From assembly GCA_963971285.1 (NCBI GenBank), contig OZ020247.1, positions 15,024,614-15,088,613 of the forward strand: a stretch of DNA of 64,000 nt. The letters are read 5' to 3'. Below, piece after piece: positions 22,715-62,707 of this stretch. Numbering within the stretch: the first letter of the stretch is position 1; each line of letters opens with the position of its first letter. A program made the translations under genes and the position numbers. The notes beneath the pieces were generated by a model. The model searched no databases. It saw only the letters and a program-made list of their open reading frames with translations, and had not been told where the DNA came from. Origin of the DNA: Astropecten irregularis. Its lineage: Eukaryota; Echinodermata; Asteroidea; Paxillosida; Astropectinidae.

Positions 22715-22965
22715 TTGTTCAAAGTAAATTGAAAATCAAAATTCACTTTTTATATTAAAATCCAGAATTTGTTCTGTGCAAAATCAATTCTTTAAAATTG
22801 AAATTGGGGATGGGTGGTTGGGTCAAACAAATTTGGAAAAAAAGTCGAAATTTAAAGACACATTTTGAGCGGCCCCTTGCCAAGAAAATATGCTTGAAAA
22901 GAGCTCTCCAACAATATTACAACACTTCGGGTGCTGTCGTCCTGTGTTTTGACCTATTAAGGCAA

Positions 22966-25540: not shown

Positions 25541-25692
25541 GTTCAAGCCTTGAATTTAACAGATGCCCTGGTTCTTGGCCTTAGTGCCCCCTTCAAATAT
25601 TTCCATAGACATGTTTTTTCAATGGAAGTGCCCCTTGCAATGGAAAAGTGCCCTTTGCTCCTTTCAGAATCAAATTCAAGGCCTGCAAGTTT
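25540..25692. repeat. MITE family G (unit 1, first copy)
   Basis: Ends TCAAGCCTTGAATTTAA and AAATTCAAGGCCTG are inverted repeats. The interior has 'cttggccttagtgcccc' and 'ttcaatggaagtgcccctt'. Related copies are at 26120-26438, 30240-30392, 30820-31135, 42395-42557 and 50728-50897. Confidence 0.75.
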
Positions 25693-26119
25693 CTGTTTGG
25701 GCTTGGTTTGTACAGTGTCCATATAGTATCAGGCTCAGCAAACTTGTGCCATAGCACACCCTTCTGCAATTACATGTATTAAGATTATTTCAAATGACCC
25801 ATAATACTGGTGGAAATACTTTAGCACCAATGTCACACAAATATTATCATGCGAAATAGACAACAGCTGCACATGTTAAAAATCAAAAGAAATTAAAAAA
25901 ACCAGAGTTATTAAAAATGCTGGAATATATTTTTTAAATTAACAACAATGATCAAATACACATTCGGACAATAAAAACACACTATCAAGCATTTCAGCTG
26001 TAGTACTCTTTTACTATAATTTTTACCTATTCTTTGAACACTTTACAGTAATTTCTTTGGCATTTGCTTTGGTTTTATAATAATGAGGTGGAAAACTGTG
26101 GGAATATTTTCGTAGCATT

Positions 26120-26438
26120 TCAAGCCTGGAATTTAACGGAGGCCACATAGGCCATGGCCTTTATTGCCCTGATAATTGGCCTTGGTGCTCCTTCAAATAT
26201 TTCCTTAGACATAATGATTTTCCAATGGAAGTGCCCCTTGCAATTGCACTCCGCACTTGCGCTAAAAATAGCACACCGGATCTCAGACAAATTACATTGC
26301 AACCATGCAAACATGTGGTACACTATATGCGTGAGTCAATGTTTGTCTGACATCCGGGGACTTGTGTGACGTCATTGGTGCAGAGCGCTATTGAAAAGTG
26401 ACCTTGCCTCTTTCAGAACCAAATTCCAGGCCTGGCAT
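26120..26438. repeat. MITE family G interrupted by a second element
   Basis: The family G copy is split by about 150 bp at 26245-26395, which carries 'cgcacttgcgctaaaaatagc' and ends near 'agagcgctattgaaaa'. Parts of the same insert also occur at about 43010-43070. Repeated in unit 2 at 30820-31135. Confidence 0.7.
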
Positions 26439-26599
26439 TTGGAATGAACCTGCCTAGATTTGTGCAAAAAATTAATGAGGTAATTATCTATGGTTCTTTC
26501 AATGACAATACATAACAGACATAGTATAATGGTTGTGTACTATACAGCATTATTTAAAGCAGGTTAATTGAGATGTTTATCATGTTAATCAGTAGTTCC

Positions 26600-26698
26600 G
26601 ATGATCATAACCCTAGGTCTGACATGGGGACCCAGTCCCCATGTCAGACCTAGGGTTACGATTCCAGTTCCTATGTCAGACCTAGGGTTACGATCATC
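26600..26698. repeat. Hairpin repeat upstream of DYNLL copy 1 stop
   Basis: Three copies of AACCCTAGGTCTGACAT in alternating orientation. 26609-26631 pairs perfectly with 26635-26657 over 23 bp, and 26600-26625 can pair with 26673-26698. The copy in unit 2 is at 31299-31387. It lies just beyond the DYNLL stop codon, so it may be in its 3' UTR. Confidence 0.75.
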
Positions 26699-26769
26699 GC
26701 AACTAGTTAATCAGCAGGTACAGTATAGGCCTACATGTATTAAAGAATAGTATTGGCTAGGTTTATCCA

Positions 26770-27039
26770 TTAACCAGACTTGAACAGCAGAACAGCCACT
26801 TGGCCCAGGTAGAAGTAGATGAAGTGCTTGGTCTCGTGGGTGACATAGCTGCCGAAGTTCCTGCCCACAATGCAGTGCCAGGTGGGGTTGTACTTCCGGT
26901 CGAATTCCTTCTTGATGTAGGCAGCGATGTCTTTCTCCACGTTGAACTTTTCCATGGCCTGGGTGGCACACTCGATAGCGTCCTGCTGCACCTCTTCAGC
27001 CATGTCGGCGTTCTTGACGACGGCTTTGCGCTCAGTCAT
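26770..27039 (-). CDS. DYNLL: Dynein light chain LC8, copy 1
   Basis: Cytoplasmic LC8 dynein light chain, an 89-residue dimeric hub that binds short linear motifs in dynein intermediate chain and many other partners. Single uninterrupted coding exon, full length, with hallmarks [20 protein letters not shown] and C-terminal LLFKSG; nearly every residue fits animal LC8. A candidate splice acceptor (AACATCCACAG) about 26 bases upstream of the ATG suggests a non-coding first exon. In this copy the DNA beyond about 27137 is MUL1-derived, so the normal first exon and promoter appear lost. It is protein-identical to copy 2, with one silent difference seen (GCC/GCT). Confidence 0.95.
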
Positions 27040-27137: not shown

Positions 27138-27222
27138 GCGGTGCGCAAGATTGCTCCAGCCGCCTCATTGCCCTATATGCAGACAACGTATTAAGCGGGT
27201 GGTACCCCTCTATCACTCCTAG
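27138..27222 (+). pseudogene. MUL1: Truncated MUL1 C-terminus
   Basis: Duplicate of the last MUL1 codons, encoding [18 protein letters not shown] and the terminal VVPLYHS with TAG at 27220-27222. It lacks the membrane segments and the first half of the RING, so it is a breakpoint fragment with no expected function. Lies upstream of DYNLL copy 1 on the opposite strand. Confidence 0.95.
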
Positions 27223-27600
27223 TCCTAGATACACTTGATCTGGCACCAAAAAATGAGTGGATAATTTGAAATAACAAATTCAAAGATATTATTAGGGGCC
27301 ACTCAAAATGTTAAGTGTTTTTTAATTTCTACTTTTTTCCGAAATAGTGAGTGGGCGGGTCAAGGACTCAAATAAATTGTTCAAAGTAAATTGAAAATCA
27401 AAATTCACTTTTAATATTAAAATCCAGAATTTGTTCTGTGCAAAATGGGTGGTTGGGTCAAACAAATTTGGAAAAAAAGTCGAAATTTAAAGACACATTT
27501 TGAGCGGCCCCTTGCCAAGAAAATATGCTTGAAAAGAGCTCTCCAACAATATTACAACACTTCGGGTGCTGTCGTCCTGTGTTTTGACCTATTAAGGCAA

Positions 27601-27766
27601 TAGGGCTCCGAGCTCGAGCTATTGATAGAATACGCCCTTTATATCGACAGCTATAGTTACCTGGATGTTCGGACAAATTTCACAACGTTTACTTGTAAGT
27701 TAATTGGGCAACATGCGACTTGTTTGTCCGAACATCTGAATGTGATGTCACAAGTGCGGAACCCTA
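27601..27766. repeat. MITE family T (unit 2)
   Basis: Copy of the element at 22966 carried along by the segmental duplication; the two are virtually identical. Confidence 0.85.
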
Positions 27767-30239
27767 TTCTGGAGTTTCAAATGTGATAAAGTTAACAGAA
27801 TATTGTCTTTGAATAGCTGGACTGTGAGGCTGATTATACTCCACTCATTTTATGATGCCAGATCGATTAACAAAATATCTATTGTAGATTTTATTAGAGA
27901 TCCCAGGAATGGGCCAAGATCCATTTTGTTTTTTAGCCTGATCATCTTTAATATTGAAACTGATTTTTGTGCAGTTACATTTTGTAGTGCACTGCACTCA
28001 ACATGATCATGGCAAAGTATTACTCAGAGAACTGTGTGATTTGGTGGGTTTTAAACGTCCCTGTTTGGAAAATTTTATCTGCAAATGTATTGCAGACATG
28101 TTGGATTTATCTTATGCAAAACGTGTGGTAGGAGTGTCATTCCACCAGGCTGGGGCAGGATTTGTATGGTATCCCTTGTAAGCTGTAACATCTAACATCA
28201 TTTATTATGGACTAGTCTCTCAAATCTTAATTAGTGGAAAAATAAATAATAAATAATACATGTATTTTAACGTTCCGTCCTAATAAAGGATTGTAGATGG
28301 TACAGTTTCTGGATGGTGCCACACATCAGAAAGGATACTTTGCGTTTTGGGCAAAACGTAAGGAAATTGTGTTTAAGCAGCATCCTGATGATGTTGAACT
28401 GAAGTTAAATGCATATTTCCTGTCATTTGGAACCGAAGAGAATAGGGAAAACAAATAAAAAATCCTGTTTAAATCTTGCAAGTTATCATGCCAGTCATAA
28501 TGAGAAAACAGAGAAATCCTGTCCCAGAGTGATGGAAGGGCCATAAAGGAAAACATTGATGTTCGTTAAAATTTGAAATATGGTTTTCTGTTTTCATTGT
28601 GATCAAGTAAGTACATTTGGAGGGTTTCATACTGTCAATTTATACCAGGAATGAATATAATTTTATGTTACACTGAAGGTAACATCTGCAATGAATAATT
28701 TAACAGTATTGTGAAATCAATCCAGCAAAATTATATTTTCCAGTTAACGAAAACAACATGGGATGTTATAGATTGAGACAAACTTGGCTAGATATTAATT
28801 GTTTTCATTTATAAGCTTGAATATTCAAAATATTTCCTGTCATCAACTCTTTATCCTATATTTCCTATTTATAGAAATCAATAATATGCTAACATTGAAA
28901 CATTCAGTTGTTAAACAACTCTGTGTTTATTTTTCTCATAAGTTGTGTTCAGTTAAGTTTAAGCTGGTACATTCAGTTCAGTTTTAAATAAACCCATACA
29001 TTTGAGAATTACATACTTTTGTGAAGAGAAAGCATTTCATTTGAAGTCTCCCTGTCACCAATAACATGAAGGAAGGAAAGCAACCAGAACAACTGCTTTT
29101 ATTGGCCGTTTTTTTTTTTTGGGGGGGGGAGGGGGGGGGATATGATCATTGACATTTGATCATATTGTGGGAAGGATTATTAAGATTAGAATAGATGTTC
29201 ATTGCCTATATTGAAATATTATTGTAAATTTCAGATGCAAGACTGCCTAAAATACTACTGTCACAAAGATTGAAATGCACACATTTTCAGTGACAGTATG
29301 AAAAGATGAATTGCAAATTTCCTCGGTCAAGGTAAAGTAAGCCAGTGACATTGCCATCCCGGCTTTTGTAAAACTTTACAAGAACATGCACTGCACATGT
29401 ATCCTAGCAACCTGAAAGTTGTGGTAATTCTGTGTGCAAACATTAATAACTGGCTTAGTTTACATCAAAAGTTGTCAGAAATCCACTGTCACTGTGCTTA
29501 TGGATGGTGGTGAGTTGGTGACAATAGGTTGGTTTGAACTTTTTGCATAGAATATACATGTGTATTCCATTATATTAACAGGGAGGGTTAGTTTGTCCAC
29601 TGTAAACACTCCACAAAGTTACACAACCCACAGGGGTAGGTATCTCATTAGTGCATGGGGTAGTGTCCCAGGTTTACAGGAGTACATTGGAATTTATGGG
29701 TTGGTTCTCTGTCCTCCACATGCACCACACTGTATAATCAGTATCTTCTCTTCACAAACCCCACCACATTCAAGACAGTATCATGGTGATTCAGATTCAA
29801 TTAGGGTTAAACAATAGGTTACATTATGTCAACCTCCTCGGAGTCCTCGCCAAACAAGATTTCTGGTATCAACATCGAGGATTACAATAAAGGCCTGACT
29901 TTTTACTTTTACAGGCTAACTTTAGCACATTTTGATTAAACAAAACTGACAAATTGTACACAAAAATGCATTAATTACTGTTTTCATACAATTTACTTCC
30001 ATATTCTAGGCAAGCTTCAGAGTATATCTTCCACTACACTTTTTGTTCAGCACAGTCGTTTAGACAGAAACCATGAATTAACAATTTTGGCAAAAAGAAC
30101 TTGAGGTATAATGTACAATCTGCTGGAATCTGTGTATATCCTGTATCTACACCACTTGGAAGTATATACAGTGCCAAACACTCCTGTTCATGACCAGTAA
30201 AATTTTGTCTCGGCCAGCTGAGGGCAAGTAATTGCATCA
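27767..30239. other. Gene-free duplicated spacer, unit 2
   Basis: Counterpart of 23132-25540. The only larger difference noticed is extra sequence at about 29592-29645 ('gtccactgtaaacactccac'), which is absent from unit 1. Confidence 0.55.
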
Positions 30240-30392
30240 AGTTCAAGCCTTGAATTTAACAGATGCCCTGGTTCTTGGCCTTAGTGCCCCCTTCAAATAT
30301 TTCCATAGACATTGTGATTTTTCAATGGAAGTGCCCCTTGCAATGGAAAAGTGCCCTTTGCTCCTTTCAGAATCAAATTCAAGGCCTGCAAG
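30240..30392. repeat. MITE family G (unit 2, first copy)
   Basis: Duplicate of the element at 25540. It retains 'gacattgtgatttttcaatg', partly deleted in unit 1 at 25609. Confidence 0.75.
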
Positions 30393-30819
30393 TTTCTGTT
30401 TGGGCTTGGTTTGTACAGTGTCCATATAGTATCAGGCTCAGCAAACTTGTGCCATAGCACACCCTTCTGCAATTACATGTATTAAGATTATTTCAAATGA
30501 CCCATAATACTGGTGGAAATACTTTAGCACCAATGTCACACAAATATTATCATGCGAAATAGACAACAGCTGCACATGTTAAAAATCAAAAGAAATAAAA
30601 AAACCAGAGTTATTAAAAATGCTGGAATATATTTTTTTAATTAACAACAATGATCAAATACACATTCGGACAATAAAAACACACTATCAAGCATTTCAGC
30701 TGTAGTACTCTTTTACTATAATTTTTACCTATTCTTTGAACACTTTACAGTAATTTCTTTGGCATTTGCTTTGGTTTTATAATAATGAGGTGGGAAACTG
30801 TGGGAATATTTTCGTAGCA

Positions 30820-31135
30820 TTTCAAGCCTGGAATTTAACGGAGGCCACATAGGCCATGGCCTTTGTTGCCCTGATACTTGGCCTTGGTGCTCCTTCAAAT
30901 ATTTCCTTAGACATTATGATTTTCCAATGGAAGTGCCCCTTGCAATTGCACTCCGCACTTGCGCTAAAAATAGCACACCTGATCTCAGACAAATTACATT
31001 GCAACCATGCAAACATGTGGTACACTATATGCGTGAGTCAATGTTTGTCTGACATCCGGGGACTTGTGTGACGTCATTGGTGCAGAGCGCTATTGAAAAG
31101 TGACCTTGCCCCTTTCAGAGCCAAATTCCAGGCCT
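30820..31135. repeat. MITE family G with nested insert (unit 2)
   Basis: Duplicate of 26120-26438 with the same internal insertion. Confidence 0.7.
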
Positions 31136-31298
31136 GGCATTTGGAATGAACCTGCCTAGATTTGTGCAATAAAATGCGGTAATTATCTATGGTTCTTCCA
31201 ATGACAATACATAACAGACATAGTATAATGGTTGTGTACTATACAGAATTATTTAAAGCAGGTTAATTGAGATGTTTATCATTTTAATCAGTAGTTCC

Positions 31299-31387
31299 GA
31301 TGATCGTAACCCTAGGTCTGACATGGGGACCCACAGACCTAGGGTTACGATTCCAGTTCCTATGTCAGACCTAGGGTTACGATCATC
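31299..31387. repeat. 26-bp perfect hairpin (unit 2)
   Basis: 31299-31324 and 31362-31387 are perfect 26-bp inverted repeats (GATGATCGTAACCCTAGGTC...), separated by 37 bp that contains a third partial arm. Counterpart of 26600-26698. Confidence 0.8.
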
Positions 31388-31458
31388 GCAACTAGTTAAT
31401 CAGCAGGTACAGTATAGGCCTACATGTATTAAAGAATAGTATTGGCTAGGTTTATCCA

Positions 31459-31728
31459 TTAACCAGACTTGAACAGCAGAACAGCCACTTGGCCCAGGTA
31501 GAAGTAGATGAAGTGCTTGGTCTCGTGGGTGACATAGCTGCCGAAGTTCCTGCCCACAATGCAGTGCCAGGTGGGGTTGTACTTCCGGTCGAATTCCTTC
31601 TTGATGTAGGCAGCGATGTCTTTCTCCACGTTGAACTTTTCCATGGCCTGGGTGGCACACTCGATAGCGTCCTGCTGCACCTCTTCAGCCATGTCAGCGT
31701 TCTTGACGACGGCTTTGCGCTCAGTCAT
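31459..31728 (-). CDS. DYNLL: Dynein light chain LC8, copy 2
   Basis: Second LC8 gene, 89 residues with protein identical to copy 1 (starts [12 protein letters not shown], ends LLFKSG). Single coding exon with the same possible 5' UTR splice acceptor just upstream. Unlike copy 1 it keeps unique upstream DNA (31819-32800), shared head to head with the first SRSF gene, so it is the copy more likely to have the ancestral promoter. LC8 works as a homodimer in dynein motors and as a general dimerisation hub. Confidence 0.95.
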
Positions 31729-31818
31729 GTTGGTGTTAGTAATTTTAGAAATTCTGTGGATGTTTAATAATACATAAAAGTTATCAATTAATATCAAACA
31801 TTGGGAAAATATTGAAAT

Positions 31819-32856: not shown

Positions 32857-35174
32857 ATGTCGGGATACTACGGATCTAGAGATGGTGGATCTAGGGACGG
32901 CTACTCGTCGGACGGTCGAATTTACGTGGGTAATTTACCGCAGAACATCCGCGAGAAAGATGTGGAAGATCTCTTCTTCAAGTACGGCAGAATATCCCAC
33001 ATTGACCTGAAGAACAAGTCCCTTGGACCGCCCTTTGCCTTCATTGAATTTGAAGATAAAAGGTGAAGTGTAGGCCTACGTAGTTACTGATGTGATTTTT
33101 TGGCTGTTTTGCTGCATCTTTCCCTCCGTAATTTTCGGAAGTGATTTACTTTAAAGTTTAGCCCAGGGAAGGCCTTCCTCCATGCTGGTTGGACCGCAGT
33201 TCAGTGACAGGGTACGGTGTCAAACTCAGTCAAAGTCAATGCAAAGTGATGTCCTCAGTCAGTGGAAACTGGAATTCTTTCCGTTAGTTTTAGTTAAATA
33301 GTTTGTAGGCAGTGACTTGAAATACACAGAATCACAGTTTCCCAATAATCAAATTACTGAATCAGTCCTCCATCGTCAGATTGTGTGTGAAATGTTTTGA
33401 TTCTGTTGTTGAACTTGAACTTGAAGTGGTGTAGGCCTACCCAATCATCATGCCTTTTCAATGCATCATTCTTTACAAGTTGGTTCTGTGTATGCTGCCT
33501 AAATAGACACATCCATTAAGTCCCGCCCCCATTTGTTTCTGACCAATCACAGCCCTGATTTGTTTGACACTTAAGTCCGACATGAAAAGGCGTATTAAAC
33601 ATGTGACTGGATCATGCAGCGTGGCTTTGTTTGGAGAGACCACATGTCACATGTTCTTTGCCTTTGGAGGGGCTAGCTGGATCGGTTTGTTCGGCCTTGA
33701 CTAGACAATTCTAATTGAGTTGAGATTTTTTCTTTGATTCACAGAGATGCGGAGGATGCCATCTACTACAGAAATGGGTACGACTTCGATAACTGCAAGC
33801 TGCGAGTGGAGAGGCCACGCAGTGGTGGGCCTCGTGGAGGTTACGGCGGTGGGGGTAGGGGCGGTGGAGGAGGGGGAGGTAGAAGAGGAGGCCCACCACC
33901 CAGAAGGTCGGACTACCGGTGTATCATATCGGGTAAATCATGGAGTCCTTCATATGTCATCAACATATTTGTGACCTTGTTTGCTTTCCAATCCCTGGTC
34001 ATCGCTGTGATGCTGAGGTCATTGCTTCAATGGCCCCTTGATCACTGATGCGGTTCCCTTGATCATCGCCCCAGTGCCCCCGGTGACCTGGTCATCAGTT
34101 CCACGCTCATTGCCTCAGTGTCCCTGGTCATTGCCTCAGTGTCCCTGGTCATTGACTCAGTGTCCCTGGTCATTGACTCAGTGTCCCTGGTCATTGACTC
34201 AGTGTCCCTGGTCATTGACTCAGTGTCCCTGGTCATTGCCTCAGTGTCCCTGGTCATTGACTCAGTGTCCCTGGTCATTGACTCAGTGTCCCTGCTCATG
34301 GACTGTGTCCCTGCTCATTGCCTCAGTGTCCCTGCTCATTGCCTCAGTGTCCTTGCTCAATGTCTCAGTGTCCCTGCTCATTGCCTCAGTGTCCCAGACC
34401 ATTGTTCCAGTACCACTGACCTCCGTGTCCGGTTAAATGTTTGATTAGGTAATTATTTTAGGATGTCCTAGTTTGATTTTGTAATTAAGAATTGATTGTT
34501 TTCCCACATCCAGGACTGCCTTCCACTGGCAGCTGGCAAGACCTGAAGGACCACATGCGAGAGGCTGGGGATGTGTGTTACGCTGACGTATACAGGGATT
34601 GCACGGGTGTCGTTGAATATGTGAGCGAGGACGACATGGCATACGCTATCCGAACCCTAGACGACTCAAAATTTAAATCCCATGAGGTAATTAATTTTGT
34701 CATAAGTAATAATTCATGTTTGATTTGCTCGTTTCAATTTCTGGATTGGTTACCTTCAGTTGTGGAACAAAATGCAATTCACAAATCTCCACTTGTGTGC
34801 CGTATTCATTCTAGCAAAATCATAAACAGGTTAACAAAATCTCTCCTTAATGCCCCACCCCCCTTGAATACAGGCTGTACTGCCTGTACATATCCATGGC
34901 AACTATCATTCTTAATAAAACAGCCTTCCTTTGTTTTCCCCCTTCTTTTCCATAATTGTTCTTACCTTTGATACAGGGTGATGTGGCCTATATCCGAGTG
35001 AAGGCTGACTACAGCGGCGGTCGTGGCAGTCGATCAAGGAGTCGCTCACCGATCAACCGGCGCTACAGCCCCAAGCGACGCTCCTACAGCCCCAGGCGCT
35101 CCAGACGTTCCGTCTCCAGATCCAGATCCCGAAGTCGATCGAGGAGACGCGAGAGTCGCTCACGTTCCCGCTAA
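32857..35174 (+). CDS. SR splicing factor, SRSF1/SRSF9 type, copy A
   Basis: Nuclear SR protein that binds purine-rich exonic enhancers and promotes spliceosome assembly. Exons 32857-33062, 33745-33932, 34514-34686 and 34977-35174, all GT-AG and in phase, 254 residues (human SRSF1 has 248). RRM1 with IYVGNLP and FAFIEFED; a glycine linker ([15 protein letters not shown]); the second, pseudo-RRM with the diagnostic [20 protein letters not shown]; and a C-terminal RS domain ([20 protein letters not shown]) with Ser-Arg dipeptides for SRPK/CLK phosphorylation. The ATG at 32857 is preceded by an in-frame GTG at 32848 that is not used as a start. Intron 2 holds a 21-bp minisatellite. A conserved GGA-rich downstream region suggests an extended, spliced 3' UTR. 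It pairs with GATC (-) further downstream. Confidence 0.96.
34095..34410. repeat. 21-bp minisatellite in SRSF-A intron 2
   Basis: About 14 copies of TGTCCCTGGTCATTGACTCAG with small variations. The period of 21 keeps frames open on both strands, giving spurious MTRDTES-type repeats. A degenerate relative occupies the same intron of SRSF-B (about 42100-42240). Confidence 0.9.
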
Positions 35175-36736
35175 AGGGGCTTCTGCCTGCTCGTCTTATT
35201 TGTCTTAAACGTTGCCTTGTTGAGTTCAGTTGTCGACAAGGAGACATCCTGGCTTCATTTCCAAGAGCAATGAGGAAGTCAAGGTTCGTTCATGTTTAAA
35301 AAAAGAAGACAGCAAAAGAAGAAATTCTTTTTTTTTTCTCATTGATTTGTTTGTACTTTTTAAATTTTTAATGAAATTCTGGAATATTAAATGTTTTTAT
35401 AAACACAGAGAGACAGGGAAGCTGGGATGCTACATTTTCATATGCTTTGCCGGACATCGACACACAGTGGCCTTTTCTTCCATGAAAATTTCATCATACC
35501 AGGGCTCAATTTCATTGGGCCACTTTATACCAGGAAACGTAACTTTTACTCGCTAAGCAGATTTAAAAAAAAATTTATTAGCAAAAAATTATTGTGAACC
35601 AGTTGCAAGTAGTATTAGGAACACGTAAATTGGGTTGGTAACCCATTTTTGCTTAGACAAACTTTGGTTGTATTTACAACTGACATGAGATAGGCCCATA
35701 AAGATAGGGTGCTGCAAGGGTGATGTATGTGGACTCCACATTACCTTTACCATTTAATTTGCCAAGTATGATTTTGTAGGTTTTTAGTTACACAAAATGG
35801 TAATGAAAAGCCAGTTTTGCTGCTTATTGTTAAAACAAAATCCCATGTAATCTGATAATACTAGGGAAACAACTTGTATTTGTGTTGGTTTCAATGTGTC
35901 TAAACTATAATCATTTTTTTCTGACTGTAGAATAGGTGGAGAGATTTCTGTTAATTTGTTTAGTTTGCAGTAGAAAAAAAAACAAGTACGGTATTATCTT
36001 CTGACCAGCCAGGTTGGTCCACTCCCTATATCAAAGAAAGTTATTTTAATACTTCAAACAGGAAAATATTACTTAATTTGTGAATCTCTTATTTCATTCA
36101 CTTGAGTGTAAGCAAAAAATATTACAACAGTAATAGAGCAGAGCTTATACAGTAGTGTATCCTATGGATTGCCTGCGAATACAAATGGACAGGGGAAGAT
36201 TGTACAATTCAAGGAATTTAATCAGGGTCTCTCATTAGGCTGACTAGCGGTCACTAGCCATGATATCATGACATGTATAAGGTTGTTAAAATGGGGCAAA
36301 TTCTTTTTTTTTTAAAGGGGACTTGTATGAAATGTAAATTGCAATTTTGTTTGTTAGTGCTGTGTGTATGCATGTTTGTGTTTTGAGTGTCGTTTTAAAA
36401 GTTAGTAATTGGTAGTTTTATAAACAAAACGTGAGCAAGCTAAGTTTCATGCTGAGCAAAAATCACAGGCAGTTTACACTGAGACCGAACTTGAGTCTCA
36501 CAGTACATGTACTGGTTTACACTCGCATTGAGTTATAACTGCTTTCCTTTGTATGCTGTAAAACAATGCGTCTTTTTGCTCAGCATAATTATTATCCATG
36601 TTCGTTAGAGAGTGCCACTGTGTGGTCATTGAACGTCACAGTGGCAGTCTTTCCATTGTGTTTCAGTTTCTTTTTAAGATACTGTTATGACATTTATTAA
36701 ACCTTATACCTTCTTGTATTTTTTCGATGTTCTCAG
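35175..36736 (+). other. Downstream region of SRSF-A, probable 3' UTR or 3' intron
   Basis: Similar to the region after SRSF-B (43381-44782), in particular the first 120 bp ('gttgagttcagttgtcgaca', 'gagcaatgaggaagtcaagg') and later patches. No coding sequence. AAG|GTTCGT at about 35281 could act as a donor. Confidence 0.5.
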
Positions 36737-38604
36737 TGTCGTAAGGATGGACATTCAGAATCTCGGATTCCTTAGGAAAAGCACTGGAATCGAGGAGTCC
36801 AGGAAAAAGGAATAAGGAAAAATGGTCTCAGGATCATGGAAAAGATCGCTCAGATTTTGGAGCAGCTAATTTTTGAGGGATTTGGATCAATGGGAAACAG
36901 GATTAAGGAAGTTTTGGATGGAGGAAATCGAGGATCGATTTGATGGTAGGATTTGATGTGTGTTGTTTAGGCATGTTTGGATCACGTGTAATTTGGATCC
37001 CCCAATTTAGTAAGCTGTATCTTTTTTTTCAGTAACATGCCAGAAAAAGATGCTAAAACTAAATTTTAGACTTGGTCCTTCGTTTCCCCCACAAAAAGAG
37101 AGATACCTACAGATGTAGAGTGTAAAGTAGCCACCATGCAGCACAATTGCATTCTTAGGGCATGAGGTCATGAGACCCCCAAATTCAAATGAAGATGATC
37201 CATGCTGCAATCTGTACATTGCATAACAGAAATTGCCTGTGAAACTTGTTCCCATTGGATCTTCAGGAAACTTTTACTTTATTCTGATGCAAACATTTTA
37301 TTGTTTTTCGTAAAACGTTTTTGTTTTTTGTTCAATACGTCCTCTAGGTTTTTAATAGCATTGCATGTTTGATTTTTTTGTACGCCTATCTAATCACACT
37401 ATACATCAAGTTTCATATTTGGATAAAGTTGTGGAGTTTTTATTTTTTTAACTCAATAAATCAGTAGTGGTGTTCTTATTTTCTTGTCATATTCATCATC
37501 GTTTCTTTCTTTGAAAATGTTCACGTTTGTGGCAAATAGTAAAAAATTACAAACCAAATGGTCAAAAGTTTATTTGATTTTGAGCTACATGTAAGGAGTT
37601 TGTAATCTGTTTAACTCAATTTTCTAATAACTTCTCTTTGAAGGTTCTGTCAGGGAGATGCAAGCGATAAACGAACTTTAACAATCATTTGGAGGGAAGG
37701 ACACATTACCTGCAATTCCTTTGGATTTGGAACCAGGCAAAAACAAAATTTAATCTGGAGTCCATCCCAGGAAGGAGGGGCAATCCAGGAGTCGAGTTGG
37801 AATAATTTTCCGCGTTCCCTTTCCTTGCTTCTTGTGGAACTGGATATGGAATCAGAGCAGGAATCTGATCTCAGTTTGGAAAATTTCCAAAAGGAATCTC
37901 ATACGGAAGGAATCATTTCAATTTGTTTTTTGTTTTCCCAAAGAGCACCACAATCGGATCCATTTCTCATGATTTTTGTTTGGGCATCAGGGATTGTTTT
38001 TCATTTTCTGGAAGGAGGGAGGGGGTGGGATTAAAGGAATCCAGGAAAACGCTAAAATGATTCCAGTACGGATATTCAATCGTTAAAATTCTCATGGAAA
38101 CAGAAACTGGATCGTGAATCTGACAAAGGAGAAAGGATTTGGACCGGAGCAATGGGAACCAAAATGTTATCGAAGGAGTCCCAGTGGAATGCAAGGAATA
38201 TTTTTGGAGTCGGTCGAGGAGTTCCAGTGATTTCTGAAGTTTTTCTTTTTCGGAATCTCGGAATGGAAATCATGGGAACAGCATTTGGCAAATCCAAAGG
38301 AAGAAAAAAAAACCTCCCAAATCTTTGGAATTTGGCATCCATCAAGGATGACCTGTACAGATTCTTCAGTATCATGGGACGACGTTGGAATCATTGATGT
38401 ATCGAGGGAACAAAATTCACTCCAGAATTGGATCCTTCCTGGAAGGCGCAAAAAAACAAGGATCCAATGTGGGAAAACTATTTCCTTCCAATGGAATTCA
38501 AACCAAAAGATCATGGCATGCTTGACATTCTATTAATTGGAAGGTTTCATTTCTAGTGTTTTTATCATTTTAACAGAACTTGCTTCTTTTTTAACCATAA
38601 TAAA
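36737..38604 (+). other. Conserved GGA-rich 3' element, SRSF-A
   Basis: Begins right after a splice-acceptor-like tract (TTTTTTCGATGTTCTCAG) with TGTCGTAAGGATGGACATTC. It continues with many GGAATC/GGATT/GGAGTCC words. A second conserved block follows an acceptor-like CTTCTCTTTGAAG at 37643. AATAAA signals are at 37455-37460 and 38599-38604. The same order, with high similarity, follows SRSF-B (44783-46705), and the first block follows SRSF-C (55785 downwards). Confidence 0.7.
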
Positions 38605-41043: not shown

Positions 41044-43380
41044 ATGTCGAGATATTACGGATCTAGAGATGGTGGATCTAGAGATGGTGGGTCCAGAGAT
41101 GGTGGATACAGAGATGGTGGATCTAGAGACGGATCATCGGATTGTCGAATTTACGTGGGTAATTTACCCCAGGACATCCGCGAGAAAGATGTGGAAGATC
41201 TTTTCTTCAAGTACGGCAGAATATCCCACATTGACCTGAAGTTCAAATCTCCTGGACCGCCCTTTGCCTTTATTGAATTTGAGGACAAAAGGTGAGGTAG
41301 TTTGCTGATGTGGAATTTTAACTGTTTTGCATCTTTTTGTCCGTGTCCGTAATTTTCAGACGTGATTCGGTTATTTCCTTATGATAGCTCCATGGCGCCT
41401 AAGGCAGCCTAGGTTAAAGTGATGACTGTTCACTACAGTACTATAGGCCAACTCGCCCACTCACACCCTTATTAACCCCTTCTCTCGCCCCTTACAAACT
41501 CGCCCCTTTCCAACAACTTAAACGTTATGACGAACTAAAATCTCAGCTGTGTAACACTGGGAACTGGGGTAGGCCCTAGCATATACATGTACAGGTTTTT
41601 TTTACCAGTACAATGAGGAATGATTCACATCAAATGCAGCAGCAGCCATTTTTTTTCAAAACGCCCTCTGTTGTTGTTGTGACATAGCCTAGAGTTTGTG
41701 CACAAGTGATGGCCGTCAGTGGAATTCTTCCCGTGAATTGTTTTATTTGATGAAACTGTACCCCATCATGCCTATCACATCATGATATTATTCAAGCAAT
41801 TTTACATTTGAGGTTTTTGTGTTTTTAATTTCACAGAGATGCGGAGGATGCCATCAGGTACAGGAATGGGTACGACTTCGAGAACTGTGAGCTGCGAGTG
41901 GAGAGGCCACGAGGTGGTGGACCTCGTGGAGGTTACGGCGGTGGGGGTAGGGGCGGTGGAGGAAGTAGAAGAGGAGGCCCACCACCCAGAAGGTCCAACT
42001 ACCGGTGTCGTATTTCGGGTAAAATAATGGAGTTTTCATTATAACTTGATAATCTTCGTCACAAGTGACCTTGTCACCTTGGCTGTCTTTGTCATGAATC
42101 CCCTTACCCCTGTCATTGCTGTAATGCCGAGGTCATTGTTTCAATGCCCCTGGTCAGGCTGGTCATTGATGCAGTTATGTTGGTCATTGCCCAGTGGTCC
42201 TGGTCATCAGTGCCCCTGGTCACTGCCTCAGTATTCCTGATTCAGGAATCCAGATAATTGCCTGTTTCCTTGGGTCATTGCCTTTGTGCCCCTGGTCCTC
42301 CTCCCAGTGCCTTTGCGGATTGCCTCAGTTACCCCATAGGTCGTAGTTCCATTACCACTGATAGTTGCCTCTGTGTTGTTAAATGTCTTAGCAGGCCTTG
42401 AATTTGGTTCTGAAAGGGGCAAGGCCACTTTTCCATTGCAAGGGGCACTTCCATTGGAAAATCATAATGTCTATGGAAACATTTGAAGGGGCACCAAGGC
42501 CAAGAACCAGGGCAACGAAGGCCATAGCCTCCGTGGCCTCTGTTAAATTAAAGGCTTGTCTTAGGACGTCTAATTGTCTATGTTTGATTTTGTAATTGAA
42601 AATGATTCATGTATTAATTTCCTCACATCCAGGACTCCCTTCCACTGGCAGCTGGCAGGATCTGAAGGACCACATGCGTGAGGCTGGGGATGTGTGTTAC
42701 GCTGAAGTATACAAGGATTGCACGGGTGTTGTGGAATATACAGGGTACGACGACATGAAGTACGCCGTCCGATCTCTAGACGACTCCAAATTTAAATCCC
42801 ATGAGGTAATGGTGTCATAGTTCCTGTTTGAATTGCTCATTTAAATTTTTAGCATTCACGATTGACTAGCTGTGGATGGGGAACAAATGCAATCTGCAAA
42901 TATCCATTTGTGTAACTTAATATAACCAATAGCGTTCCACACTACTGACGTCTCACCATGCATGCACGCGCACACATACCCCCACTCACCACACGCTTGC
43001 ATGGCCGGTTGCAATGTTTGTCTGAGGTTCGGTGCTATTTTTAGCGCAAGTGCGCAGCGCTATTCAGCTTAATGCAAATTATCATGAACAGGTAAACAAA
43101 ATCTCTCCCTATGGGAACTTTTTAATCTTGATAAAAATGGCCTTTTGTTTGGTTTTGCTTCTTTTCATAATCTTTATTATCTTACCATTGTACGCAGGGT
43201 GACGAGACTTATATCCGTGTGAAGGCTGACAACAGCGGCAGTCGATCAAGGAGTCGCTCCCCGATCAGCCGGCGCTACAGCCCCAAGCGACGCTCCTACA
43301 GCCCCAAACAACGTTCTGTCTCCAGATCCAGATCCCGCAGTCGCTCCAGGAGACGCGAGAGTCGCTCACGTTCCCGCTAA
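41044..43380 (+). CDS. SR splicing factor, SRSF1/SRSF9 type, copy B
   Basis: Second SR-protein gene in direct orientation to copy A. Exons 41044-41291, 41837-42018, 42633-42805 and 43198-43380, with the same phases as A, 261 residues. RRM1 ([22 protein letters not shown]), Gly/Arg linker ([13 protein letters not shown]), pseudo-RRM with [20 protein letters not shown], and RS tail ([19 protein letters not shown]). The N-terminus before RRM1 has five SRDGG-like repeats, from a local 15-bp expansion, where A has two. Substitutions in RRM1 (CRIYV) and RRM2 ([12 protein letters not shown]) show appreciable divergence from A. No disruption seen. Convergent with intact GATC downstream, as in the ancestral pair. 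Confidence 0.96.
42395..42557. repeat. MITE family G (intron 2 of SRSF-B)
   Basis: Reverse-oriented copy: AGGCCTTGAATTTGGTTCTG start, 'aaggggcacttccattgg' interior, decayed right end 'aaattaaaggctt'. It ends about 75 bp before exon 3. Confidence 0.75.
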
Positions 43381-44782
43381 AGAGGCTGCTGCCTGCCTGC
43401 TCTTCTTATTTGTCTTAAACGTTGCCTTGTTGAGTTCAGTTGTCGACAAGGAGACATCCTGGCTTCATTTCCATGAGCAATGAGGAAGTCAAGGTTTGTT
43501 GTTATACATTTAAACAAGAAAACAAGACATTCAGTTGAAAAGAAGAAGTTAAGGATTATTTGCTAACTAGTGAGAACAACTAGCCTTTTCTAATTTACCA
43601 AGTATTACTTTGTTGGTTTTTAGTTGAACAAAAATGATAATGAAAAGCTAGTTTTGCTTCTAATTGTAATAAATACCAAATCCCATTTAATCTGTTAATA
43701 CCAGGGAAATGACATGGTTTCATTGTGTTAAAACCAGATCATTTTTGTTTGATCCTTAACAAGCTGGAGAGATTTGTGTTTATTTTTTTTTAGTTCACAG
43801 TAGGAAGACAAGTAAAATAATTTTTATAACCAGACAAGTTGGTCCTTGTATCAAAGAAAGTTAGAAAACAATTTTGAATCTCTTATATCATTCAGTTGAG
43901 TTTAAAGCAAAAAACAAAAAAGGACGTACATATATGTTGAATAGTGTACTATATCATATGGGATTGCCAACAAACGCAGATGGACAAGAGATGATTGAAC
44001 AAGTATTCAAGTAGGAATTTAAAGGGGTTATTAATTTGGATTGGTAGTTGAATAAGTTTTAGATCTCAAAGATTGTACACATGTAAATTTATGCATCCAT
44101 TCTCTTATTTGATGCTTGCCATCACTATTTGAGAATTGACCTTTGTAAGAATCAGTGCGAGACCATCAGCTGGAACTTTCCATTCACTGTGAAACCATTT
44201 GAATCATTGAGCATATTAGAACGACTCAATGAAAATTTAGGGGCCTCTTATTAAAACTGACTAGCGGTCACTAGCCATGATATCATTATAAAGCTGTTAA
44301 ACTGTGGCAAATTTTTAAAAAGTTTAAAAAGTGGGGGGGGGGGGACTTGTATGAGATGTAAATTGCATTTTTTGTTTAGTTCTGTGTATGCATGTTTGTG
44401 TATTGAGTGTGGTTTGAAAAGTCGGTAATTGGGAGTTTATTTAAAAAGAAAAAAAATTAGCTAGCAAAGTTTCATGCTGAGCAAAAATCAGCTATGTAAA
44501 TGTCACAGGCAGTTATAAACGCAGTTTGCACCCAGATCGGACTCGAGTCTCACAGCACTGCTTTACACTCGCATTGAGTTTTGACTGCTTTCCTTTGTAT
44601 GCTGTACATGTAAAGCAAGGCTTCTTTTTACTCGGCATATTTTGTTTGTGTTTAGGGGATCCATGTTTGTTTGAGAGTGCCACTGTGTGTAGTCTTTCCG
44701 TTGTGTTTCAGTTTACTTTTAAGATTTTGTTATGACATTTATTATATCTAATACCTTCTTGTATTTTTTCGATGTTCCTCAG
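43381..44782 (+). other. Downstream region of SRSF-B, probable 3' UTR or 3' intron
   Basis: Alignable in patches to 35175-36736, including the first ~120 bp and 'tgctgagcaaaaatca'. AAG|GTTTGT at about 43494 could be a donor for splicing to 44783. Contains no coding sequence. Confidence 0.5.
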
Positions 44783-46705
44783 TGTCGTAAGGATGGACAT
44801 TCAGAATCTCGGATTCCTTAGGAAAAGCACTGGAATCGAGGAGTCCAGGAAAAAGGAATAAGGAAAAATGGTCTCGGGATCATGGAAAAGATCGCTCAGA
44901 TTTTGGAGCTGCTAAGTTTTCAGGGATTTGGATCAATAGGGAACAGGATTAAGGGAGTTTTGGATGGAGGAAATCGAGGATCGATTTGATGGTAGGATTT
45001 GATGTGTGTTGTTTAGGCATGTCTTAATCACATGTAATTTGGATCCGGCAATATAACAAGATCTTTTCTTTTTCAATAACATGTCAGAAAAAGAGACTTT
45101 GTTGCTTGTTAGATTGTACATGTACTTGTATTCCCCCTCCCACAAATCGAGAAGATATTTCAGATATAGAGTGTAAAGTAGCCACCATGCAGCACACGTG
45201 CATGGTGCTACTAGACTACTAGTACATTCTTAGGGCATGGGGTCATGAGCCCCCTTGAGCAAAATTTAAATGAAGATGATCCATGGTTCAATCTGTACAT
45301 TTCCTGGCATTATTCTGTACCTGAGATGGGTTTCTTGCAAGAAATCTGCAAGCTATGCATGCATAGAACAGAAATTGCCTGTGAAATTTTGTTTCCACTG
45401 GATCTTCAGGAAACTACTAGTTTATTCTGATGCTGATGCAAACATTTTATTGCTTTTCATAAAAAAAGTTTTGGGTTTTTTGTCAAGTAGGTTTTTGATA
45501 GCATTGCATGTTTTTTTTGTACGCTTATCTACTTAAATATTTCAGGTATCATACTTGGATAGAGTTGTGGAGTTTTTTTTTTTTACTAATTCAATAAATC
45601 AGTTGTAGTGTTCTTATTTTTGTGTCATATTCATCATCGTTTCTTTTCTTGAAAATGTCCATATTTGTGCCAAAACTCAAATTGCAAACTTGATACCAAA
45701 TGAACAAAAAGGTCAAAAGTTTATTTGATTTTGAGCTACATGTAGTGAGTCTGTAATCTGTTTAACTCAATTTTCTAATAACTTCTCTTTGAAGGTTCTG
45801 TCAGGGAGATGCAAGCGATAAACGAACTTTAACAATCATTTGGAGGGAAGGACACATTACCTGCAATTCCTTTGGATTTGGAACCAAGCAAAAAGATTAG
45901 TCAGGAGTCAGTCACAGAAAGGAGGGGGATTTCAGGAGTCGCTTTGGAATAATTTTCCGCCTTTCCTTGCTTCTTGTGGAACTGGATATGGAATCAGAGC
46001 AGGAATCTGATTTCAGTTTGGACAATTTCCAAAAGGAATCTCATACGGAAGGAATAATTTCAGTTCAGGTTTTCCCAAAGAGCATAGAAAAGTACCAATT
46101 TCTTTAGATTTTTTTTCGGGTATCACGGAGGGTTTTCTTTTTCTAAAAGGGATGAGATAAAGATATTCCAGTACGGACACATGTATTCGATAAATTCTCA
46201 TGGAACCAGAAATTGACAAAGGGAAATGATTGGGACTGGAGCAACTGGAACCAAAATGTGATCGGAAGAATTCCACTAAAATGCAAGGAATATTTTGGAG
46301 GCACTTGAGGAGTTCAAGTGAAGTTTTCTTTTTTCGGAATCTCAGAATGGAAATCACACATTCCATGGTGGGAACGGCATTTGGATTCCTCTTGGCAGAT
46401 CCTAAGGAAAAAAACATATCAAAATCCTGGAATTTGGCATCTTAAGGATGACTTGTACACATTCTTCAGTATCATCACGATGTTGGAATCACAGTGGTGT
46501 ACTGAGGGAACAAAATTCACTCCAGAATTGGACCCTTCCTGGAAGGCGCAAAAAACAAGGATCCAAAGTGGGGAAACTATATCCTTCTAGTGTAAAGCAA
46601 ATTAAAAAAACATGTACGTGTACACTTGAAATTGTCTTCATTACAATGTTTTATTTCACTAATGGTTTGATCATTTTAACTTTCTTCTTTTATAACTTGA
46701 ATAAA
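44783..46705 (+). other. Conserved GGA-rich 3' element, SRSF-B
   Basis: Starts after GATGTTCCTCAG with the same TGTCGTAAGGATGGACATTC block as SRSF-A and SRSF-C, followed by GGA-rich sequence. A second acceptor-like site is at 45794, and AATAAA is at 45593-45598 and 46700-46705, all in the same order as in A. Confidence 0.7.
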
Positions 46706-55429: not shown

Positions 55430-55785
55430 ACATCAAACCATACCATCGTTTCCTTCCAGGATCCCTCCAAAATCTCTCAATCCGGAGTCAAATCCTGTTT
55501 CCTAATCCTTTGATCCAAATCCCCGTCAGAAATTCTTTTATCCAAATCCCCGTCAGTAATGCTCTTTTAATCCAAATCCCCGTCAGATATCCTTTAATCC
55601 AAATCCCCGTCTGAAATCCTCTCTGCCCAAAAACATGGCCGCTCCATAATCTGAGCACTTCCATTTCCGGATTGCCGTCAAGACAAGACATTTTTTTTTT
55701 TTTCCTTAATCGTTTATCCATGACTCCTCATTTTCCAGTGCTTTTCCTAAGGAATCCGAGATTCGGAATGTTCTTCCTTACGACA
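55430..55785 (-). other. Conserved GGA-rich 3' element, SRSF-C
   Basis: Read on the minus strand: an acceptor-like TTTCAATGTCCTCAG ends at 55786, followed by TGTCGTAAGGAAGAACATTC and CTCGGATTCCTTAGGAAAAG, the same block that follows SRSF-A and SRSF-B. It then enters four tandem copies of GACGGGGATTTGGATYAAAG (about 55505-55610). About 3.5 kb downstream of the SRSF-C stop. Confidence 0.7.
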
Positions 55786-58978: not shown

Positions 58979-59240
58979 GTTTTTGTCAACGGTGACATTT
59001 GGTGGCATTTTCTTAACGTGCTTATGAAAATCAACCAACAAATAGGACAGAAATGGACAAACACAGCACTCTTATATTTCTTGTCTATTTTGGAGACTGT
59101 TTGGAATGAAATGAGACATTGATTCTGCTTTGAATTTTTATTTTGTTTGCACCAACCTTTGCTCGTCCTTTGTCTGAGGTTTCAGGCAAACAAATTTTAT
59201 TTGATCATGATTTAACGCCGTCTCCGGTGTCGTTGGAGCT

Positions 59241-62200
59241 TTAGCGGGAACGTGAGCGACTGTCGCGTCTCCTGGAGCGACTCCGGGATCTGGATCTGGA
59301 GACGGAACGTCTGGAGCGCCTGGGGCTGTAGGAGCGTCGCTTGGGGCTGTAGCGCCGGTTGATCGGTGAGCGACTCCTTGATCGACTGCTGCGACCGCCG
59401 CTGTAGTCAGCCTTCACGTGTATGTAGGTAACGTCACCCTGTATAAATGTTGTAGGGGAGAGGAGGGGAGAGGAAAGGAGAGGAATAGGAAAAGAGAGAT
59501 ATGAAAGCTTGTATAACGAAAGGAGAAGTACAAACATGTTTGCATTTCATCAATATTCTTGCCTTTTTGTTTAGGAAGGAAAACCATTCAGAGCACTGAA
59601 GCATGTAAGATAGCCAATTGGAATTGAATTTCTGTGGTAAAGAGTAATCAAAATGCTCAAAATTTTAATACTTTAACTGGTTTGAAATGGCCAAACAGGA
59701 GGGGAGATTTGGCTCTGATTAAGAGGATCGGATACAAATTTGCAAAATTAATTGCGATTCCAGCATGACCAGGAGTTGTGGGACCAATATAAAATGAAAA
59801 TGCTGTTTTGAAAAATGGATTTAGAAGCAAGATGTAATTTTTTAGTTTTGCTAAGTTTATAATTTGTAAGAAATTCGCTAGAGATTATCATGAGCATGCA
59901 ACATAGTGTGGCATTTCAGAACAGAGAGCATTTTATTTTTAAACTTAGGTGGTCAATTAGGTGGGACCAATATAAAAGGAAAATGCTGTTTTGAAAAATG
60001 GATTAAGAAGCAAGATGCTAGAAGAATTGAAAGCAAATCATTAGTACACGCCCTATAAGAAGATATTGTGCCATCTCAGCATTGAAACTAGAAGAACGCT
60101 AACAGCTCACCAGATGAAGTTTCCTGATGTCATTTATTGAAATGTAACTCAAATGAACTGAACAATTCAAAAACGAACCATGATAATATTCTTACCTCGT
60201 GGGATTTGAATTTGGAGTCGTCGAGAGTTCGGACGGCATACATCATGTCGTCCTCACTCACATATTCAACGACGCCTGAGCAATCTCTGTATACCTCTGC
60301 ATAGCAGACATCTCCAGCCTCACGCATGTGGTCCTTTAGATCCTGCCAACTGCCAGTGGAGGGAAGACCTGCAAAAAAGATCCAGTCCAATTTATAAGCA
60401 AACAAATTGGGGCAAGCTAGGCCTACACAGAATTACAAAAATTGCACCTTAACTTAAAGGTAATATCATAGTAATCATACTTTGGTTTTTGTCAAAGAAA
60501 TGCAGATTCATTGGCAAAAATATATCAAGGAAGATACAGAAACAGTCTGTGAAATTTTCAGTGCCATACAGTGCCCAGTACTGCCCATTTTTTGAGAAAA
60601 CAATGAAAAACAGCCATACTATTTTTTTCATAATCTTTTCACCGCTATTTTTTACGTTTAAAAGATCAACTGTTTTTGGTCATTGGTTTTACTCTTTTCC
60701 GGAGAAATACAGCATTTCAGGCAGAACAATTTTAAGGGTATGTTTCTACCATCACCATCTTTATACCCTGTAAGTTATAGGTAAATCTGTGAAGATTTCT
60801 GTTTCGGTATGCTACCAGAGTATGACAGTACCTTTAAAGCTCAAATGCAAAGTCAATAAGTTAAGGAGGCTACTGGAGGGTTCTTGTGGGAATTAATGAC
60901 AGGACTACAGAGGATTCTGGCAAATCAAGGATGATTTCAGAAATCTCTTGAGGATCCATGAGGATTTTGGAGGATTCCAGAGAATATGGGAGGGATTAAG
61001 GAAAATCCAGCAAGACTCTGGAGGATTTGGGAAGATTTGTGTGAAATCTGGAGGGCTGGAGAGGATCAAGGAGGATCATGGAGAATTAGGCTTTTGGAGG
61101 ATTTTACAGGAGGACCGAAGATATTAAGGAATTCAGGAGGATTAGGGAGGATCCTGGAGTATTTAGGACAGCTGAGCCTTCTAAGAGGATTCGGGTGAAA
61201 TCAGGATGATTCCAGAAGATTCAGGAAGATTCAAATTGAATAAGATCAAGGAGGAGTCTGGAAGATCAAGCTGAATTTGGGAGCCTGGGAGGATTTGGGG
61301 GAGGGGGTCTAGAAAGGATTCTGGAGAATTCTTGAGGGTGGGGGTAAAAGCCCAAATGGCATCAAACATCAAGATACATGTAAAACAACAAAAATATGAC
61401 TGAACTTAAATTTAAACTTCATGGATGGCCTAATTAAATATTCACCTCATTGAAATGTGAACAATGCGAGTATCGTTAAAATAATAATTGGGGGTATAGC
61501 AGTGTGTGAGTGGTTTCATGGAATCTAACTACCAAACGAACAAAGATAATTGACTATTTGGGACACCACCAACATAGGGCTGGATAGCTCAGTTGGTAGA
61601 GCACCTGTACAGTATTCAGGAGGTCGCCGGTTCGAATCCCGCTCCAGTCAATTTGTCTTTATTCACTTTGCAATTAATATTCACCTGTTACAATACACCT
61701 GTATTTAGATCTCCTTGGTGGGGGTCCCCCTCTCCTACCCCCACCACTTCCACCACCACTGAAGCCTCCACGAGCTCCACCACTCCTTGGACACTCCACA
61801 CGTAGCATGTATCGGTCATAATCATAACCATCCCTGTAGAATATTGCATCTTGTGCGTCTCTAAAATAAAAGAAAAAGTCATTCAAAAATTGTAAATGAG
61901 TAAATAACATTGAATATGAAAATATATGTTCCGTGTTGATGAAAGGAATTACTGTTATCAATTCATAGACTTGAAGATCGTTGATAAAAAAGTGCATGCT
62001 TACATATAATGAAATATCAATACAAAATTGATGTAATTTTTTTATGCTGAGTTTATAATTTGTATGAAATTTGCTAGAACAGAACAGAAAGCATTTTAAA
62101 TTTAGGTGGCCTCAGGGTTTCCTCCAACTCTACAATAATTTAAGGTATTGTTTGAAACATGTTCAAATCTGGATTCAATATTGAAAACAAAAATGGATTC

Positions 62201-62707
62201 CTGGATTGAAAAACTTTAGGCCCTAAATTTTGTTTAAAACACTTTTAAATCTGTGAATTGTACAGATCCTTAAAAAAGAAGAAATAAATTCATATTAATA
62301 ATGACCAATTAAAGATAACCAGATTATTAAGGCAAACCACGAAACAGTACAGTGACCAATGCAATGCACGCAGTAATTGTGCACTGCACTGGCAGTTATA
62401 AACAACAAAGAGCATTTACATTGAAACGACAAAGGGCAATTACTTCGAACACACAAACACTGCACCAGAAATCCTACCTTTTGTCTTCGAATTCCACGAA
62501 AGCAAACGGCGGGCCGACTTTAGGGATCTTCAGGTCAATGTGGGATATTCTGCCGTACTTGAAGAAGAGATCTTCGATGTCTTTCTCGCGGATATCTGGG
62601 GGTAAATTGCCCACGTAAATTCGGCCGTCCGTGGGGGTATCGCTGTAGCGAGAACCACCGCCGCCACCGCCACCGCCACCGCCGCCGCCACGACCGTAGT
62701 ACGACAT
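59241..62707 (-). CDS. SR splicing factor, SRSF1/SRSF9 type, copy C
   Basis: Third SR-protein gene, inverted relative to A and B. Exons 62478-62707, 61685-61860, 60196-60368 and 59241-59438, the same four-exon structure and phases, 258 residues. RRM1 begins after an N-terminal run of 12 glycines; it has [20 protein letters not shown] and FAFVEFED. The linker is [18 protein letters not shown]. The pseudo-RRM keeps [20 protein letters not shown], and the RS domain ends [10 protein letters not shown]. It is more divergent than A and B are from each other in RRM1 (KIPKVGPP) and the linker, but its RS domain is almost the same as A's. Close polyA-like hexamers lie at 59196-59201 and 59137-59142, and the distal conserved 3' element is at 55785. 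A tRNA-SINE ends about 12 bp downstream of exon 2's donor. Confidence 0.96.
60456..60838. repeat. MITE family Q (SRSF-C intron 2)
   Basis: AAAGGTAATATCATAGTAATCATACTTTGG start and CAGAGTATGACAGTACCTTTAAA end, with the interior in reverse orientation relative to 54247. Confidence 0.8.
60860..61340. repeat. Degenerate GGATT-rich tract
   Basis: Plus strand packed with GGATT, GAGGATT and AAGATTC words without a fixed period. Located in SRSF-C intron 2, where the transcript would carry the AATCC complement. Probably an old simple repeat. Confidence 0.65.
61495..61672 (+). repeat. tRNA-derived SINE, copy 3
   Basis: Best-preserved copy: a 72-nt tRNA-like core at 61578-61649 with A box TAGCTCAGTTGGTAGAGC, B box GGTTCGAATCC, and 7-bp acceptor pairing GGCTGGA / TCCAGTC. 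Flanks as in copies 1 and 2. Antisense to SRSF-C, in intron 2 just past the exon 2 donor. Confidence 0.85.

Follow-up and report, generated by a model that had tools for sequence, protein, structure and literature searches.

The window analysed here, a stretch of 64,000 nucleotides of the Astropecten irregularis genome (contig OZ020247.1), contains three SRSF1 genes, each with four coding exons; A and B are located on the plus strand and C on the minus strand (Table 1). The top match of protein A among the sequences of solved structures (PDB) was human SRSF1 (E 8.7e-87), and Pfam detected RRM_1 twice in this protein; both searches were made with A only, and B and C were assigned to SRSF1 by their alignment with A. 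All three proteins show the SRSF1 layout of RRM1, glycine-rich linker, pseudo-RRM with SWQDLKD and RS tail. An 18-residue stretch of RRM2 is identical in A, B and C, the remainder of RRM2 varies, and the SWQDLKD helix is unchanged in the three proteins. In human SRSF1, the SWQDLKD motif has been reported to read GGA (PMC7813835). Searching the 475.7-Mb genome with protein A gave 19 exon-sized matches, 12 of them in A, B and C and the other seven at only 32–43% identity, thus A, B and C are the sole SRSF1-like copies found by this search.

Table 1. Coding regions, candidate 3′ UTR exons and shared poly(A) signals of the three SRSF1 genes (positions within the window; the slash marks the exon-intron or intron-exon junction).
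Feature	Positions	Strand	Details
SRSF1-A coding region	32857..35174	+	exons 32857-33062, 33745-33932, 34514-34686, 34977-35174; 254 aa
SRSF1-B coding region	41044..43380	+	4 exons; 261 aa
SRSF1-C coding region	59241..62707	-	4 exons; 258 aa
A 3′ UTR part of exon 4	35175..35283	+	ends at donor-like AAG/GTTCGT, first intron base 35284; 109 nt past stop
B 3′ UTR part of exon 4	43381..43493	+	ends at donor-like AAG/GTTTGT, first intron base 43494; 113 nt past stop
C 3′ UTR part of exon 4	59157..59240	-	AATAAA starts 59201; donor-like AAG/GTTGGT, first intron base 59156; 84 nt past stop
A exon 5 (candidate)	36737..36945	+	21 GGA in 209 nt; candidate donor ATG/GTAGGA at 36946; 202/209 identical to B
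B exon 5 (candidate)	44783..44991	+	21 GGA in 209 nt; candidate donor at 44992
C exon 5 (candidate)	55444..55785	-	GGA-packed, enlarged by tandem repeat; candidate donor ATG/GTATGG, first intron base 55443
A exon 6 (candidate)	37644..38604	+	GGA-rich; acceptor TTTGAAG/GTTCTG; ends with AATAAA 38599-38604
B exon 6 (candidate)	45795..46705	+	GGA-rich; ends with AATAAA 46700
Intron-5 AATAAA	A 37455..37460; B 45593	+	common to A and B

Several other features are present in the window. With Rfam at the gathering threshold two tRNA genes only were found, one at 5549–5622 (+) and one at 61578–61650 (+; RF00005, 52.5 bits), the latter within intron 2 of SRSF1-C and opposite in orientation to this gene. 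A tandem duplication of about 4.6–4.7 kb (22476–26944 and 27138–31633) is 97–100% identical in the listed pieces and thus recent; its second copy reaches a minus-strand reading frame at about 31450–31740 that by eye looks dynein light chain-like. Two unrelated-looking 21-nt tandem arrays are located at 34055–34460, in intron 2 of A, and at 57971–58392, in the presumed intron 4 of C.

Downstream of the stop codons, the genes contain what appear to be additional noncoding exons, and we use exon 5 and exon 6 as labels for these candidate 3′ UTR exons, which were predicted from the sequence. A previous sequence-only reading of this DNA had described an acceptor-like tract, a common block and dense GGA words after the stop codon of each SRSF1 gene, and we found this arrangement in all three, at 36737 (+), 44783 (+) and 55785 (-). 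The sequence TGTCGTAAGG occurs exactly three times in the window, at these very positions, compared to an expectation of 0.09, and none of 100 shuffles gave three copies; it is absent from 220 kb of other sequence of the same genome. Every copy is preceded by a pyrimidine-rich tract with a final CAG. Using a matrix of splice-site frequencies, the exon-5 acceptors scored 10.1, 9.5 and 9.1, with the coding acceptors spanning 7.3–12.8; they are not the top-scoring acceptors of their regions, ranking fifth in A, fifth in B and tenth in C. Four bases past the exon-5 acceptor, all three genes have a donor-like GTAAGG (TGTC/GTAAGG; 36741–36746 in A), which may be a decoy.

The donor that the same reading had expected near 35.2 kb is most likely AAG/GTTCGT, with 35284 as the first base of the intron. 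Comparing A and B without gaps, 79 of the 80 nucleotides 5′ of AAG/GTTNGT are identical but only 38 of the 80 nucleotides 3′ of it; the donor region of C gave no alignment to A or B in local matching. The window contains the donor pattern AAG/GTTNGT, AAGGTTNGT, at three positions only, one past each SRSF1 stop. This number is at chance level (mean 3.2) and only the positions of the sites are informative: 0.0034 sites are expected in 150 nt of one strand, a value to be read with the pattern picked post hoc and A and B not independent. With the same matrix, the three donors scored 5.3 (A), 5.6 and 5.9, compared to 5.8–10.7 for nine coding-exon donors, and such weak donors are as expected of a regulated site. 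The usual limit for nonsense-mediated decay (NMD) is 50–55 nt downstream of the stop codon. At the sequence level, a donor and an acceptor past the stop are present in A, B and C, and the donors, located 84–113 nt past the stops, lie beyond this limit, thus the spliced form should be an NMD target.

The candidate exons are densely packed with GGA. In comparison to 300 dinucleotide shuffles each, exon 5 contains 21 GGA in A (shuffle mean 11.1, maximum 16) and 21 in B (11.3, maximum 18), and exon 6 contains 56 in A (31.9, maximum 41) and 44 in B (26.5, maximum 35). Exon 5 of C has 28 GGA in the 346 nt counted (shuffle mean 19.2, maximum 28), which is at, and not beyond, the top one of the 300 shuffles. 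Six adjoining intron or flank stretches have GGA numbers near expectation, the extreme being intron 5 of A with 8 versus 4.4 (maximum 9). When these five stretches (exon 5 of the three genes, exon 6 of A and B) are pooled, no triplet is as enriched as GGA, with 170 occurrences versus 37.3 expected from the window. Exon 5 of C contains a 27-nt tandem repeat (55504–55620) that carries GGA words, so the GGA density was kept there although the sequence was not. GGAATC words had been proposed for all copies; they are present in A and B, whereas in C it is TT that most often follows GGA (11 of 28 words), thus GGAATC is mainly a word of A and B.

A 3′ region common to all SRSF1 copies, as suggested before, exists as far as exon 5 is concerned, but only A and B have the second block and the AATAAA sites in matching order. 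In these two genes both were confirmed, with the second acceptor block at 37644 and 45795, and AATAAA at 37455 and 38599 in A and at 45593 and 46700 in B. A second GGA exon was not found in C, nor was an AATAAA between exon 5 of C and position 54000. Proximal poly(A) signals are present in all three genes: ATTAAA at 35386 in A, AATAAA at 43668 in B and AATAAA at 59201 in C, here 5′ of the donor. These genes would likely have two options: a productive one, with an early 3′ end or with the intron retained, and an unproductive one, with splicing to exon 5.

The sequence-only reading had named an interspersed repeat found at unrelated loci as a finding that would contradict its interpretation. This was rejected: using a search that skips simple repeats and very common words, the exon-5 region had three matches in the 475.7-Mb genome, all in the SRSF1 genes A, B and C, and exon 6 had two, in A and B. 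Loci unrelated to SRSF1 thus gave no match to either block. A 200-kb sample from the same chromosome (20 pieces of 10 kb) reached at least 14 GGA per 209 nt from one simple repeat only. Scanning both strands of the window for at least 13 GGA per 209 nt returned exon 5 of all three genes, exon 6 of A and B, and two further stretches, of which one is antisense to the exon encoding the RS tail of C and the other lies opposite intron 2 of C. The controls from other SR genes are thin, consisting of 10-kb pieces around two loci of the seven non-SRSF1 matches, SRSF3/7-like by eye; on three strands their densest 209-nt windows contain 9, 10 and 9 GGA, and the minus strand of one locus reaches 16, this strand being opposite to that of its protein match. 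Relatives were not found in viral contigs, which were scanned with one pattern.

The GGA tract opposite intron 2 of C (60794–61374, +) is the densest of the window, with 26 GGA per 209 nt, and is unique in the genome. It is antisense to gene C, thus intron 2 of C is TCC-rich and complementary to GGA-type words. In duplex predictions, this tract and exon 5 of C gave an energy of -197.3 versus a mean of -175.8 for shuffled tracts, with one of 60 shuffles as good, and in combination with exon 5 of A none of 60 shuffles was as good. When intron 2 and exon 5 of the same gene were combined, A was worse than all 60 shuffles, and for B one of 60 was as good. Speculatively, the TCC-rich tract in intron 2 of C might pair with the GGA exons and in this way compete with SRSF1.

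Counting every column of the alignment, the identity between A and B is 0.967 in exon 5 and 0.938 in the 3′ UTR part of exon 4, compared to 0.766–0.883 in the coding exons, 0.525–0.615 in introns 1–4, 0.729 in intron 5 and 0.769 in exon 6. The identity of exon 5 (96.7%) thus exceeds that of all four coding exons. The first 90 nt of exon 6 are identical in A and B; over its full length, exon 6 (0.769) does not stand out from intron 5 (0.729). Fourfold sites agree in 85 of 108 cases between A and B, in 59 of 102 between A and C and in 59 of 99 between B and C. In the first 84 nt of exon 5, A and C agree at 74 of 82 aligned positions, versus 59 of 102 fourfold sites, in an alignment with cheap gaps, which flatter gapped segments (the identities of whole segments are from a separate alignment). 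Of the first 60 nt of exon 5, 51 are identical in all three genes without any gap. Conservation drops sharply past the donor and is highest around the acceptors, and the noncoding exon is conserved as judged by the paralogues A, B and C only. Gene conversion could account for part of the identity between A and B. It is a less natural account of the match between A and C, which spans the final 34 nt of the intron together with the first part of exon 5 and is the only one found in that intron. In intron 4, elsewhere diverged, A (36240–36269) and B (44257–44286) have a run of 30 identical nucleotides about 500 nt 5′ of the exon-5 acceptor, and this stretch is a possible intronic control element.

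The GGA words themselves were preferentially kept. Between A and B, 114 of 142 GGA were kept in exons 5 and 6 compared to 1356 of 2144 other triplets, and in exon 6 alone 76 of 100 compared to 1022 of 1772; in introns 1–5, no preference was observed (22 of 70 GGA versus 2488 of 7257 others). Overlapping GGA words are not independent, thus the significance of these counts is a guide only. Among the triplets occurring at least 20 times, GGA is the best kept. The SRSF1 motif is present in the candidate regulated exons by density as well as by retention. SELEX with the two RRMs of human SRSF1 has been reported to select cytosine at positions -4 and +6 of GGA (PMC7813835). This register was not seen at the GGA words here: cytosine has a frequency of 0.15 at -4 and is depleted to 0.06 at +6, compared to 0.15 overall.

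Folding did not support a conserved RNA hairpin in the first part of exon 5 (z -0.49 in A and -0.50 in B); the fold in C is a different one (z -2.39), and for the beginning of exon 6 of A z is -0.05. Protein-coding exons were likewise rejected. The longest stop-free sense stretches comprise 55 aa in exon 5 of A and of B, 79 aa in exon 5 of C, and 129 and 100 aa in exon 6 of A and B; the longest antisense ones comprise 36, 36 and 57 aa in exon 5 of A, B and C, and 120 and 142 aa in exon 6 of A and B. These lengths make no coding case for exons 5 and 6.

We consider it likely that the noncoding 3′ UTR exons of the three SRSF1 paralogues form a negative feedback loop, in which removal of a regulated intron would lead to decay of the mRNA and would be promoted by SRSF1. 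The donor, the acceptor, the conservation and the preferential retention of GGA are consistent with an autoregulatory exon in the 3′ UTR that was maintained during the triplication. From these features we infer the splicing, the binding of SRSF1, the NMD and the feedback. If SRSF1 is scarce, the 3′ UTR intron would be retained, or polyadenylation would take place before or inside the intron, and the mRNA would be translated. If SRSF1 is plentiful, its RRM2 would bind the GGA words of exon 5, and in A and B also those of exon 6. The bound SRSF1 would act as a splicing enhancer for the TGTCGTAAGG acceptor, aiding its junction to the weak donor AAG/GTTNGT, and the resulting exon junction downstream of the stop codon would then trigger NMD of the mRNA. 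Since the GGA-reading helix is the same in the three proteins, each paralogue should restrain the others and the loop would sense total SRSF1. Several findings speak against autoregulation, namely the missing cytosine register, the acceptors that are not top-ranked, the donor pattern that was picked post hoc and has no more sites in the window than expected by chance, an exon 5 of C that equals the best shuffle, the lack of exon 6 and its AATAAA in C, and the GGA-dense tract without an exon role opposite intron 2 of C. In addition, these words could also serve other proteins that bind GGA or purines.

It might also be possible that the arrangement serves to generate alternative 3′ ends. The proximal poly(A) signals would then produce the usual mRNA, and the GGA exons would be part of a long, stable 3′ UTR that is bound by SRSF1 or other proteins for export, localisation or translation, without NMD. 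Such a function would agree with the ordered AATAAA sites that A and B have in common, within intron 5 and at the end of exon 6, and with the observation that intron 5 is better kept than introns 1–4. However, the distance of the donors from the stops should make the spliced form an NMD target, and in C an AATAAA is missing between exon 5 and position 54000; altogether we regard this explanation as unlikely. A regulator other than SRSF1 is another option: the 3′ UTR exons might be poison exons used by a different purine-binding splicing factor, for example Tra2 or one of the SRSF4/5/6 type. Sam68 has been reported to set the SRSF1 level via 3′ UTR AS-NMD in human cells (PMC3794575), and the cytosine register expected of the two RRMs of SRSF1 is absent here. 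Nevertheless, such cross-regulation appears quite improbable to us, with GGA being both the most enriched triplet (170 versus 37) and the best kept one of those with at least 20 occurrences, and with the GGA-reading helix unchanged in proteins A, B and C.

That the exons have no function at all is hardly credible. The similarity would then stem from gene conversion or a recent duplication, and local low-complexity drift would have made the exons rich in GGA; the tandem repeat inside exon 5 of C, the GGA-dense plus-strand tract without an exon role opposite intron 2 of C and a gene conversion that might have raised the identity of A and B could be cited for this view. A lack of function does not agree with a conservation that falls off at the donor and is highest around the acceptors, with an exon 5 match between A and C that contrasts with their far more diverged fourfold sites, and with GGA being kept in the exons but not in the introns.

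An autoregulatory 3′ UTR loop has counterparts among known systems. Human SRSF1 (SF2/ASF) is a member of the same gene family and has the 3′ UTR intron layout that the sequence predicts for A, B and C. Its isoform 1 is reported to retain the 3′ UTR intron and to give protein, with SRSF1 promoting splicing to unproductive isoforms (PMC9262138). In contrast to human SRSF1, there are three tandem copies here, with exon 5, and in A and B also exon 6, packed with GGA. Splicing of a 3′ UTR intron has likewise been reported for hnRNP A2/B1, where it yields an NMD-sensitive mRNA with hnRNP A1 as the reported regulator (PMC3794575); this system is alike in the splicing of a 3′ UTR intron, whereas protein and motif are unrelated. 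SRSF5, SRSF4 and SRSF6 have conserved noncoding poison cassette exons leading to NMD, some of them reported from sea anemone and sea urchin to human (PMC4379411). Those exons are located between coding exons and bring an early stop, whereas exon 5 of A, B and C lies past the normal stop. Lareau and Brenner reported frequent replacement of unproductive splicing in SR genes following a duplication (PMC4379411). Compared to this reported turnover, A, B and C all have exon 5, and exon 6 occurs in A and B alone. SRSF1 3′ UTR splicing outside vertebrates (invertebrates, amphioxus, echinoderms) was not found as a topic among the matches listed in a literature search by title and opening of the abstract, with most subscription journals outside its scope.

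Autoregulation of SRSF1 via its 3′ UTR is established in human cells, and A, B and C would add a triplicated and possibly cross-wired form of it. Tentatively, the three genes might act as a cross-wired dosage sensor, a possibility to which we give less than even weight: the same GGA exon would be kept in three tandem genes, the pooled SRSF1 would set the output of each copy, and the GGA load would be renewed by local repeat growth, as in C, and not by keeping the exact sequence. If this is true, SRSF1 could triplicate without a raised SRSF1 level. The 3′ UTR loop would then also predate the triplication, and it may be as old as the vertebrate loop or convergent with it. A noncoding exon that outlasts neutral divergence, with its motif preferentially kept, makes the age of the loop testable. 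The same triplication makes it possible to test whether feedback lets splicing-factor genes duplicate safely.
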